Below, one piece after another: positions 25,173-29,452 of a DNA stretch of 64,000 bases. The notes beneath the pieces were generated by a model. It saw only the letters and a list, made by a program, of their open reading frames with translations, had not been told where the DNA came from and did no database searches. The translations under genes and the position numbers were made by a program. How positions within the stretch are numbered: position 1 is the first letter of the stretch; each line of letters opens with the position of its first letter. Origin of the DNA: Pseudidiomarina tainanensis (GTDB lineage Bacteria > Pseudomonadota > Gammaproteobacteria > Enterobacterales > Alteromonadaceae); assembly GCF_004214835.1 (NCBI RefSeq), contig NZ_PIQJ01000002.1, forward strand, positions 1 through 64,000, given 5' to 3'.

Positions 25173-27365
25173 TTAGAACCGATAATAAACGGATGCGCCG
25201 AAACTACGCCCCGCTTCAGCTAATACCGGTAATGATGGATCATCGATTGGCATTCCACTAACCCGGGCATTTCGCCAGTAACGCTTATCTGTCAGGTTAA
25301 ATAGGCCTGCCGTTATGTTCAGATCGGGCGTGACGTACCAACGTGAAAGCCAATCGAAGGTTGCATAGCCAGGTGCTGAGAATAATGGGCTGTCTGCCTC
25401 ATCGAGTAATGCGCGCTGACCTCGCACAGCGGTTAGCACCAATCGCGTATCCCAATCTTGGGCTTCATATTGAAGTTCGGCGATGATACGAGGCGGTGTT
25501 ACATCAGCCAAATCACGACCACTTTCACGGTCTTCTCCACGGCTATATTCAGCGCTTATCGCGCTTGACCATGCCGCTGACCACTGTTGTTCCCAATTTG
25601 CTTCTATACCCTCAATCACGACCTTGTCGCGGTTAATCGACTGGAAAATCAATAGTTGACGGGCAGGGTCGAATCCCAATGATGCTCGGCTTTGAATAAA
25701 GTCACTATAGCGGTTGTGATAAGCCGTTATTGACCACTGAGTATCGCTATCTCGACCGCGGAAACCGGTTTCAAAAGCGTAGCCACGCTCTGCTTTCAAA
25801 TCAGGGTTGGCAATCGCCAGCACTCTAAATTGCGGATAATACAGACCGATATTGACGTCAGAAAACGGCGGCGCACGATAGCCACGAGCATACTGAGCAA
25901 ACCATTCGGAGTTATCCGATACTGACCAAATCATACCGAGCTTGGGCAGCCAGGCGTCATGTGTCAGATCAGTCACTTCCGAGTCTGGATAACGCTCCGA
26001 AAACAGAGCATCGTCACGCGTTCGTAATTTGTAATGCTCGTAGCGTATACCCGGACTAACAGTCGGTCCGTTATCCCATAATTCGAATTCATCGTGCAGA
26101 TAAACACCGAGTTCCGTCACTCGGCTTCGAGGGAAGTCTCGCAGCGGAAACGTTTCACCTAACAATGTTTTCGTTGTTTCGTTCGTTACCAAATTCGTTT
26201 GCGCTGCATCTCGCTGATCTTCTAGAGTTGAACTCATCAATTCAAAACCATAGCCGATTCGGTGACGCGTATTGGCCAACTCAGTATCAGTTTCAAGATC
26301 GGCTCCGATCCCCGTTGTTGTTTGCTCAAAATCAAACAACCGCTCGATATCCAAAGGCTCGGGTAAAAGCATTCGTTGCTCAAAAGAGTCTTGCTCAATT
26401 TCCGTCGCTTGATGGTATAAGCGCCAGCTACCGCGATCAATCCATGCCATCGGATCAAGATTGAGTTCTGCCAATAAGCGGTACTGTTGACGACTATCTT
26501 CACCAAGCAAACTTGTGGTTGCGCTGAGTCGTCCGGTTCCAATAATTGATTGAACGTCTGTGTCTCGCGATTCATTCATCGCATCGAGCGTAAACTGCCA
26601 TTCACCCAAATAAGTATCAGTTTCAGCACTAACCAACAATGCTTGCTGACGTCTTTGTTGCTCGTCGCGTAAAGCATCTGCTAAATCAGCCGAGCGAACA
26701 TCTTCGCCGTATTGAATAGCTCCAGCTAATAGCAATCGAGTACCACCATCACCGAATGCTGTTGCTCCCATCAGGTTGGCACGATGACTGTCGGTGTTAA
26801 AGCCGGCTTGTAATCGTGAACCTCGCTTACCATTAAGTAATACGTCTTCCGCATCTAGCAAATGAACGGCGACCACACCACCTAAGGCTTTGCTACCATA
26901 CATTGTGGATGCCGGACCGCGTAAAATTTCAACGCGACTAGCTAACCCTAATTCGAGCAAACCTCGCCCGGTATCTGAATAACTTCCAACTGCAAAGTAA
27001 TCGGCTACCGGAACTTGATCGATTACGACTGCGGTGCGGTTACCGCCAATACCACGTATACGAAAACCGCTGTTACCAAACCGGCTGCTATCGTCATCGA
27101 GCTCTACTCCTGGTTGATACCGAACTAAGTCGGCAGCGCTAATAACGAGATCGCGTTGTAAGTCATCTTCGTCAATGATCGTTACTGTACCCGCCACCTC
27201 GGAAAGTTGGCGTGGTTGCCGATGGGCAACCACGGTAATCACTTCCATGTCAGCGTTTTGCTGAGTTGTTGCTGCTTCATTCACATCTTGTGGTAAAGCC
27301 AGTGTTAACTGGGGCATTAACCCTAATGCCCCAGCCACAACACCAGCAAGTGCTGTATATTTCAC
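25173..27365 (-). CDS. TonB-dependent outer-membrane receptor (heme/hemoglobin type)
   Basis: 22-strand outer-membrane transporter of 730 residues. It has a signal peptide (1-23), a TonB-box region (MEVITVVAH, about 40-48) and a plug domain (about 50-165) with RIRGIGGNRTAVVIDQVPVAD and LRGPASTMYGSKALGG. The beta barrel ends in aromatic YYRF. The plug and the YARGYRAPPFSDVNIG block resemble the hemoglobin/transferrin/lactoferrin receptor group. It starts with GTG only 2 nt after the nirS stop, so it is translationally coupled to the nitrite reductase. The substrate is unproven: heme, heme d1 or another metal chelate needed by NirS are candidates. Confidence 0.9.
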   Translation of the reverse strand: MKYTALAGVVAGALGLMPQLTLALPQDVNEAATTQQNADMEVITVVAHRQPRQLSEVAGTVTIIDEDDLQRDLVISAADLVRYQPGVELDDDSSRFGNSGFRIRGIGGNRTAVVIDQVPVADYFAVGSYSDTGRGLLELGLASRVEILRGPASTMYGSKALGGVVAVHLLDAEDVLLNGKRGSRLQAGFNTDSHRANLMGATAFGDGGTRLLLAGAIQYGEDVRSADLADALRDEQQRRQQALLVSAETDTYLGEWQFTLDAMNESRDTDVQSIIGTGRLSATTSLLGEDSRQQYRLLAELNLDPMAWIDRGSWRLYHQATEIEQDSFEQRMLLPEPLDIERLFDFEQTTTGIGADLETDTELANTRHRIGYGFELMSSTLEDQRDAAQTNLVTNETTKTLLGETFPLRDFPRSRVTELGVYLHDEFELWDNGPTVSPGIRYEHYKLRTRDDALFSERYPDSEVTDLTHDAWLPKLGMIWSVSDNSEWFAQYARGYRAPPFSDVNIGLYYPQFRVLAIANPDLKAERGYAFETGFRGRDSDTQWSITAYHNRYSDFIQSRASLGFDPARQLLIFQSINRDKVVIEGIEANWEQQWSAAWSSAISAEYSRGEDRESGRDLADVTPPRIIAELQYEAQDWDTRLVLTAVRGQRALLDEADSPLFSAPGYATFDWLSRWYVTPDLNITAGLFNLTDKRYWRNARVSGMPIDDPSLPVLAEAGRSFGASVYYRF

Positions 27366-27367
27366 GC

Positions 27368-29452
27368 TTAGTACACCTCGTTCCGTGTGTTGTAGTTATT
27401 GAACTTGCCAGTAGGAGTGACCATTTTCTCTCCTTTAATGACATGTTTCAGCTTGCGTGTTTTATCGTCGACGATAACAATCGCTGATTCTTCTTCTTGA
27501 CCACTCCATACCGAGAACCAAACTTCGTCACCAGCCATATTGTACTCTGGCTGAACGATACGTTTCGGGCCTGGACCTAAATCCGCCCATTCGGCAATCG
27601 GTAACGTTTTATAACCAGCGTCTAGGTTGTTGATATCAAATACAGCAACGGATTGGGCAACTTTGGCATCTGGGTTAAATGGTGTATCAACCCACAAGTT
27701 ATTTGATTTCGGGTGAGTTTTAATGAATAACGAACCACCGCCTTGCCCCTCTAACACACGGACAACTTTAAACGCATGGTCTTTGTGCTTCTCAGGGTCG
27801 GTACCAATTAACGTGATATCGGCGTTACCTAAGGCGCTTGTCGCCCAGACTGGACCATACTTCGGATCAACAAAGTTGGCGCCACGACCAGGGTGCGGAA
27901 TACGTTTCACCGGAATTAATGCCTCCAGCTCACGATCTTGCGCATCGACAACGGCGATGGTGTCATTTTCATTCGCTGCGGTCATAAAATAGCGACCTGA
28001 ACGATCCCAACCACCATCATGTAAGAATGGTGCTGCGTCGATGGTAGTGACCTGTAAGTTATCGATATCGGAATAATTCACCAGCTTAATTTGGCCGGTT
28101 TCTTTCACGTTAACAATAAACTCAGGATGTTTATGCGAACCCACAATGGCGGCAACACGAGGTTCTGGATGATACTCTTGCGTATCAACCGTCATACCAC
28201 GCGTTGAAACGATTTTATGTGGCTCTAACGATTCACCATCCATCAACACGTAGTGCGGAGGCCAGTAGGCGCCAGCGATTGCAATTTTATCTTCATAGCC
28301 TTTGTAGCGAGAGTTCTCAACCGAACGCGCCTCTAGACCAATCTTGATTTCGGCAACAACTTGCGGTGGGTTCATATACAAATCGATTAGGTCAATTTTG
28401 CCATCTCGGCCAATCGTCGTGAAGTAACGACCAGAGCTTGAAGCACGGGAAATATGAACCGCATAACCGGTTTTCACATAATTCAGTACCTTCTTGCTCG
28501 CACCGTCAATAATGGCAACCTCACCAGCATCACGGAGCGTCACAGCGAACATATTATCGACATCATAATTATGCTGTGGCTTTTTCGGACGATCTTCTGG
28601 CTTAACGTGTACCACCCAAGACTCTTTCATGTCCTTCATACCCCACTCCGGCGGGGTTGGTGGCTCATGTTGTAAGAACCGCGCCATCATATCGATGTCT
28701 TTTTCGCTCAGTTCTCCGGACGTGCCCCAGTTTGGCATACCACCTGGCGAACCAAAGTTGATTAACGCTTTAAGGTAATCGGTGCCTTTCTTCTGGGTGA
28801 TATCGGTGGTTAACGGCAAACCTGTTGCCCCTTTACGCAACACACCGTGACACCCAGCACACCGCTGGAAATAAATTTCCTGTGCCTTAGCAAATTCCTC
28901 TTCGCTGATATCCGGCGCGCCTGGAGTTTTCACCATTTTTCCGCCAGAAACAGCCGATGGAGCGCCTTTATAACTGACTTCAGCAGCGGTTGAGCCTTGA
29001 TGCGGCTGACCTCCCGCGCGATCTTTTAAGCCCAGATCAACGCGAACTTGCTCCACTTCATCTTCGGTTACTTCACCACCTTTATTGCCCCAACTTGATA
29101 AAACATAGTTGGCAATATCAGCAATATCTTCATCGCTAATATGTTGCATGGGCGGCATGACAGCATTGTATTTCTGACCATTTACTTCCAGCGGACCGGA
29201 CATGCCTTTTAAAATAGTTCGCACCACGTGCAGCTTATCATCAACGACATGTGGGTTACCGGCAAGCGGAGGGAAAGCGCCCGGCAAACCTTGCCCATTG
29301 GGTTGATGACAAGCCTGGCAGTTCGCCTCATAGGCCTTTTTACCATCATCCGATGCAACGGCAACTGAGCTTCCTGCTGTTAGTAGCAACCCTGTTACTA
29401 CTGCAAGCGTAGACAGTTTCGGGTACAACTTAGTTATCGTACTAGGTTTCAT
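27368..29452 (-). CDS. nirS: Cytochrome cd1 nitrite reductase with fused N-terminal cytochrome c
   Basis: Periplasmic nitrite reductase reducing nitrite to nitric oxide. Residues from about 178 onward closely follow classical NirS: heme c site CAGCH (198-202) in [18 protein letters not shown], then the eight-bladed d1 propeller with TGYAVHISR (His333), SHKHPEF (about 439-445), FLHDGGW (His478) and a C-terminal GKFNNYNT. The protein has 694 residues, over 100 more than usual, because a second c-type cytochrome (CQACH, 45-49; Met ligand candidates 99 and 102) precedes it after the signal peptide (1-33). The extra domain resembles NirC-type donors. Perfect GGAGG ribosome site. It is transcribed from an FNR/DNR-type promoter and coupled to the TonB receptor gene. 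No heme d1 biosynthesis genes are in the window. Confidence 0.96.

Follow-up and report, generated by a model that had tools for sequence, protein, structure and literature searches.

A nirS–TonB-dependent receptor gene pair in Pseudidiomarina tainanensis as a candidate heme d1 scavenging unit

The nirS–receptor locus

The DNA studied here, referred to below as the window, is a stretch of 64,000 nucleotides from Pseudidiomarina tainanensis (contig NZ_PIQJ01000002.1, positions 1 to 64,000). It carries nirS, the gene for cytochrome cd1 nitrite reductase, followed on the same strand by the gene for a heme-type TonB-dependent receptor (TBDR) that we propose as an importer of heme d1, the cofactor of the reductase. 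The locus has the following parts:

27368..29452, minus strand: nirS; its product of 694 amino acids (aa) is a cytochrome cd1 nitrite reductase that carries an extra cytochrome c domain at the N-terminus
29090..29353, minus strand: additional cytochrome c domain at the N-terminus of NirS, residues 34-121 (PF00034, residues 35-121), resembling the cytochrome domain found in copper nitrite reductases (e.g. 2zoo)
28673..28894, minus strand: heme c domain of NirS, residues 187-260 (PF13442), with His and Met ligands present
27386..28564, minus strand: heme d1 propeller domain of NirS (PF02239, 463.5-465.6 bits), the sole cytochrome-d1 domain of the genome
27374..27379, minus strand: GAGGTG, a ribosome-binding-like word within the 3' end of nirS, ahead of the receptor GTG (from the sequence and its relatives)
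25173..27365, minus strand: TBDR gene, heme type, proposed heme d1 importer (730 aa, GTG start)
29527..29540, minus strand: FNR/DNR-like site GTGACATAGATCAA upstream of nirS (8/10 consensus positions, p 0.14 alone)

The receptor gene starts 2 nucleotides (nt) after the nirS stop codon (gap 27366-27367), both genes lying on the minus strand, and the GAGGTG word falls in the last nirS codons. A junction of this tightness (2-nt gap or stop-start overlap) is present in all 12 relatives for which it was printed. The spacing, coordinates and strands had been given in an original prediction made from the DNA letters alone, and all were correct when the sequence was re-read.

By its sequence, the window protein is the cytochrome cd1 nitrite reductase NirS, and it is complete: residues 156-694 match P. 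aeruginosa NirS with an E-value of approximately 1e-262. There are two CxxCH motifs because of the extra N-terminal cytochrome c domain. The heme c and heme d1 ligands His51, Met88, His182, His327 and His369 are all found in the window protein.

Distribution of the heme d1 pathway and of the receptor

The host genome (5 contigs totalling 2,371,417 bases; completeness 99.93%) contains a single cytochrome-d1 (D1) domain, that of the window NirS, and therefore encodes neither NirF nor NirN. Genome-wide, there were no matches to NirJ at an E-value of 1e-3 and none to the siroheme decarboxylase domains of NirD, NirL, NirG and NirH (NirDLGH) at 1e-6; NirE and NirC were sought only in the loci around nirS. 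A cNor-type NorB was not found in the genome at an E-value of 1e-40. The original prediction had judged the d1 genes to be lacking over 64 kb, with a location elsewhere as one option. For NirF, NirN, NirJ and NirDLGH the absence now extends to the whole genome, and that option is ruled out for these proteins by the single D1 domain and the genome-wide profile results for NirJ and NirDLGH. Each of the four genomes drawn from the same genus has one D1 domain and no NirJ above the cut-off. The window itself contains hemE, which means that this step of heme synthesis, at least, is encoded.

A NirS scan of named genomes gave 80 loci, the best 80 of 103 relatives, from which 50 genomes were chosen after the TBDR and d1 gene content of the loci had been seen. 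Nine of them (makers) each have NirJ, NirF/NirN (at least three D1 matches) and the four NirDLGH domains. The other 41 (orphans) each have one D1 match, no NirJ and no NirDLGH; the proportion 41/50 is not a frequency, since the genomes were picked with locus content already seen. The NirDLGH search also included G000, giving 42/51 genomes without these domains. Judged by gene content, the d1 pathway is all-or-none among nirS genomes, and orphan nirS is common. Among the orphans are 17 named isolates (Pseudidiomarina, Idiomarina loihiensis, Aliidiomarina, Kangiella, Wenzhouxiangella, Seongchinamella and Sinimarinibacterium) as well as metagenome-assembled genomes (MAGs) or uncultured genomes of Thiothrix, Cocleimonas, Woeseiaceae, Robiginitomaculum, Gallionella and Sideroxydans.

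A TBDR gene lies within 3 kb of nirS in 35/41 orphan loci, and in 34 of these 35 the distance is 200 bp or less. Among loci with flanks of at least 2.5 kb on both sides, the TBDR is present in 31/34 orphans, compared with 1/9 makers and 3/267 background open reading frames; seven of the 41 orphans, four of which have a TBDR, were set aside for short flanks. The TBDR profile used for these counts may favour nirS-linked receptors, because 12 of the 15 receptors from which it was built adjoin nirS, and the Fisher p values for the counts ignore relatedness. A further 30 loci come from genomes untested for d1 genes, and six of these have a TBDR (2/14 with full flanks). All 17 named isolates that lack the pathway have the receptor beside nirS. 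The arrangement varies, the receptor gene following nirS in some loci and preceding it, or being convergent or divergent, in others. Gene order in relatives, to which the original prediction had pointed, bears out the pair: it is conserved, and it coincides with loss of the d1 pathway.

The d1 makers G180, G181, G183, G194 and G195 carry 2-3 NirS copies (full-length D1, >470 bits), one of them apart from the d1 genes. Small proteins that are weakly NirN-like (74-96 bits) are encoded just 3' of nirS at L074 11783-12553, L079 11914-12705 and L081 3348-4124, in orphan or untested loci; from this similarity, it is possible that they are cofactor helpers.

Explaining the orphan/maker labels on a 63-row NirS tree takes eight changes, at least seven of them on well-supported branches. 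In seven independent pairs from the tree, the TBDR goes with the orphan state in a mean of 5.2 pairs, against it in 0 and shows no difference in 1.8. This test omitted L056, L060 and L062 and treated G107 as a TBDR-bearing maker (that is, against the reading favoured below), and 7/19 makers were so labelled from the d1 genes in the locus alone.

Genomes were also drawn evenly from the class and from the family. A D1 match at an E-value of 1e-40 occurs in 82 of the 370 gammaproteobacterial genomes drawn, and in six genomes a full NirS is the only D1 match (G000, G344, G481, G487, G492 and G557). A relative of the window receptor scoring at least 411 bits was found in 6/6 of these and in 0/364 others, always by nirS, and the next-best receptor scores 392 bits; only the best three first-look candidates per genome were scored in this draw, and the best seven in the family draw. 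The lone-NirS count covers genomes with one D1 match only, not two. It leaves aside G475 and G554, whose frames (400 and 523 aa) are NirF- or NirN-like, and G512 and G547, whose E-values are weak (8e-69 and 1.9e-55).

In the family draw (147 genomes), eight receptors score above 450 bits, those of all seven orphans and of the maker G107; the ninth scores 364. One of the genomes, G041 (one contig, 100% complete), encodes NorB, a receptor belonging to the clade of the window receptor, and a NirS that is unfused and comes from another lineage; it has one D1 domain and no NirJ above the cut-off. G028 has two further D1 matches of approximately 21-26 bits, which we regard as unrelated propellers. 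The NirDLGH search extended to neither G041 nor G028. The D1 stretches of G048, G057 and G069 are NirN or pieces of NirN, and these genomes were not counted: G069 has nirN and nirE adjacent to each other with no nirS (L123 9153-11526), G057 has nirN split over two frames with nirE beside it (L029), and G048 has a piece of nirN (L030). These are perhaps remnants of lost nir clusters.

The NirS of orphans is conserved as a heme d1 protein. The five heme ligands named above are kept in 44/44 orphans and 19/19 makers, and Tyr10 is present in 39/44 orphans compared with 14/15 makers having a letter at that position. At 92 d1-domain columns that are invariant in makers, orphans have a mean identity of 98%. 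Against four relatives, the nonsynonymous divergence (dN) of nirS is 0.031-0.061 and that of purD 0.061-0.119, nirS being lower in 4/4, with near-saturated synonymous sites; the receptor gene has a dN of 0.052-0.298. As judged from these rates, nirS is under strong purifying selection.

Receptor relationships, regulation and neighbouring genes

In a receptor tree of 77 rows, 33 PhuR-like receptors form one clade (SH-aLRT 97). The G041 receptor lies inside it, and 32/33 members are encoded by nirS, the other being that of G107. Four receptors from genomes without D1 (G425, G438, G513 and G342) flank the clade: the first is adjoined by HmuT/U/V, and no HmuT or HmuU was found in the stretch read around the other three. 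More than one recruitment of a receptor to nirS appears likely from the tree, because the nirS-linked receptors of Seongchinamella and L068, of Thiothrix, Cocleimonas and Robiginitomaculum, and of Gallionellaceae fall far from the PhuR-like clade. The number of recruitments is unsure, as few non-nirS relatives were sampled outside the main clade and two classes join at support 95.

The window receptor scores 301.3 bits with TIGR01785 (curated cut-off 316.85) and 280.3 bits with TIGR01786 (323.75), below the cut-off in both cases; its clade mate in L122 passes both. An AlphaFold model of the receptor (mean pLDDT 84.6) has a 22-strand barrel and plug like PhuR. PhuR with heme is the top match in a structure search (Z 41.3, rmsd 2.0, 663 residues, 26% identity), followed by ChuA (Z 36.7) and BtuB (Z 36.0). 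The heme type named in the original prediction agrees with the TIGR01785 score, sub-cut-off as it is, and with PhuR as the best solved relative. The structure search cannot separate heme from heme d1 as ligand. The heme ligands of PhuR are, we presume, His124 and Tyr519; the aligned residues here are Gly133 and Asn505, and these positions are no discriminator because the hmu control L155 also lacks both ligands. The conserved residues of the nirS-linked receptor clade were considered as a ligand signature, and no signature emerged. Among 72,556 plasmid records, 28 match the receptor, all at less than 60% identity; the 12 matches listed have approximately 30-32% identity and are annotated as heme-type receptors.

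Relatives with hmu genes served as heme controls, and a Fur box was found in 8/8 of them (p <=0.03). At p 0.05, a Fur box was found in 0/37 upstream stretches of nirS-linked receptors or nirS, the best match upstream of the window operon being 10/19 (p 0.96). FNR-like words scoring 8-10/10 occur in 17/19 operons in which nirS is followed by the TBDR (p < 0.05 in 12/19), that of L050 not being convincing. For the FNR/DNR-type promoter of the original prediction, the window site alone is not significant in the shuffle test, but similar sites recur across these operons. Start codons are uncertain in high-GC loci, and promoter distances there are affected.

No HmuT or HmuU was found in 47 nirS loci, and HugZ is absent from the host genome. 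HugZ was found in 8/41 genomes: five heme controls, G174, G492 and G557. Among 29 genomes, the five heme controls have two FecCD permeases each, two Kangiella carriers have none and the other 22 have one each. We read the single FecCD permease of the host, encoded on another contig, as belonging to a BtuFCD-like set. As far as neighbouring genes and promoter words indicate, the context of the receptor does not look like that of heme uptake.

Several other genes lie near nirS. A CoA-transferase gene (AcetylCoA_hydro, window 29579-30865) is directly upstream, a position kept in Pseudidiomarina and Idiomarina loci. The gene arsJ and its glyceraldehyde-3-phosphate dehydrogenase gene are at window 31722-33925; the arsJ pair is also near nirS in L039, L040, L041, L043, L054 and L063, and was not found in loci L042, L046, L047, L049, L091 and L106. 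A COX1-family gene with a small partner is near orphan nirS at L207 11306-13546, with similar starts in L066 and L068; it may be an unusual NO reductase (eNOR). Just downstream of nirS at L122 6974-8761 is a gene for a NapC/NirT-type multiheme protein with an ethylbenzene-dehydrogenase-like heme domain, and a gene of like size is near nirS in L119 and L154.

Supply of heme d1 to NirS

From this distribution of genes, the receptor probably delivers scavenged heme d1 to periplasmic apo-NirS, the two genes forming a scavenging unit. At low oxygen or in the presence of NO, an FNR/DNR-type regulator would turn on nirS and the receptor gene jointly, and NirS would be exported and receive its c hemes in a cell unable to make heme d1. 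Denitrifying neighbours would release heme d1, the receptor would bind it, and TonB would drive its passage across the outer membrane. Heme d1 would then reach apo-NirS in the periplasm and be inserted without NirF or NirN. An inner-membrane transporter or permease would be unneeded because NirS works in the periplasm. According to published work, NirDLGH and NirJ are cytoplasmic, and NirF/NirC and NirN, like the insertion of d1, are periplasmic (PMC13168839); NirS is exported by Sec and has been obtained in purified form lacking d1 (semi-apo) (PMC3694632). The cargo is likely to be finished heme d1, because the late periplasmic proteins NirF and NirN are absent as well. Supply of the reductase cofactor by the receptor, one of the options in the original prediction, has strong genomic support, in that the pair is conserved and, on the NirS tree, the TBDR tracks d1 loss over at least seven changes. 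We found neither a complete d1 pathway together with an unrelated substrate nor a lack of conservation of the pair.

The sequence and fold of the receptor are nearest to PhuR and other heme receptors, as would be expected of an ordinary heme receptor whose co-expression with nirS provides heme b or iron in anaerobic growth. We regard this as unlikely: it leaves the link with the absence of the d1 pathway unexplained, a Fur site, HmuT/HmuU and HugZ are missing as described above, and hemE in the window means that this heme step is encoded. Import of a precursor or other tetrapyrrole, or synthesis of d1 by unrelated enzymes, with the cell finishing the cofactor itself, is improbable as well, given that NirDLGH, NirJ, NirF and NirN are all absent together and that finished d1 delivered to the periplasm needs no further enzyme.

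The absence of the d1 pathway would also fit a lone NirS that carries another heme (e.g. heme b) or has another job, the adjacency of the receptor having a different reason. The retained d1 ligands, the 98% conservation of the maker-invariant columns and the strong purifying selection on nirS make this very improbable. Finally, the d1 genes could have been missed through incomplete genomes, many orphan genomes being MAGs, but we give this next to no weight: in addition to the nearly complete host genome and the single contig of G041, the record of I. loihiensis SN11 is titled as a complete genome, each of these three is without NirJ above the cut-off and without a second strong D1 domain, and 17/17 named isolates behave alike.

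A number of observations weigh against delivery of heme d1 by the receptor. The sign test on the tree pairs gives a median p of 0.0625 (range 0.031-0.25). G107 makes d1 (its genome is 80% complete) and yet has the receptor, encoded in its nir cluster and divergent from nirC; the maker locus L093 also has a TBDR near nirS, and the orphan MAG loci L059, L066 and L079, with adequate flanks, have none nearby. The FNR-like site of the window is weak (p 0.14), and among the upstream regions of other receptors p is below 0.05 in only 5/16 (L068, L092, L154, L207 and L208). Missing HmuT/HmuU is not unique to nirS loci, since 3/4 of the nearest non-nirS receptors also lack them nearby, and Sinimarinibacterium (G174), G492 and G557 do have HugZ. 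NirF and NirN, both absent here, are thought to be involved in heme d1 insertion (PMC3694632).

Among known systems, the principle is closest to that of PqqU, an outer-membrane TonB receptor that likewise equips non-producing cells with a scavenged redox cofactor (PMC12124388). PqqU imports PQQ and belongs to a different receptor clade, whereas the window receptor is encoded by a gene coupled to that of the enzyme, and import is proposed; the first part of the principle is seen in a cofactor-dependent NirS whose tested cofactor pathway genes are absent. The heme receptors PhuR, ChuA/ShuA and those linked to hmu share fold and sequence with the window receptor, which differs from them in its sub-cut-off scores, its lack of a Fur site and of an adjoining heme ABC importer or HugZ, and its linkage to nirS. 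The canonical nir cluster (nirS with nirCFDLGHJEN, as in G109) has a NirS with all heme ligands in common with ours, but the whole tested d1 pathway is absent from the window genome. By its description, the C1-C2-NirS fusion of Chloroflexi (PMC8756737) resembles the window NirS in being fused to an additional N-terminal cytochrome domain, and the term 'TonB' is absent from the main text of that paper. In the literature searched, which did not extend to bioRxiv and most subscription papers, we found neither heme d1 import nor a nirS–TBDR pair reported earlier.

More broadly, we lean towards the view that heme d1 is a traded public good, which many NirS keepers in Gammaproteobacteria, Gallionellaceae and Alphaproteobacteria import in finished form through dedicated receptors of more than one TonB class (PhuR-like, CirA-like and others). 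The gene nirS is widely used as a marker of denitrification. If the proposal is true, community nitrite reduction would rest on cofactor exchange, nirS counts would differ from capacity, and nirS carriers could come to a halt if d1 makers were lost. A mixed marine assemblage in which Idiomarina was used is described as able to denitrify (PMC11041763), and heme d1 could be exchanged in such a setting. With one enzyme and one receptor, culturable Idiomarina and Kangiella would offer simple systems for two questions that are still open, the passage of heme d1 through membranes and its entry into NirS.

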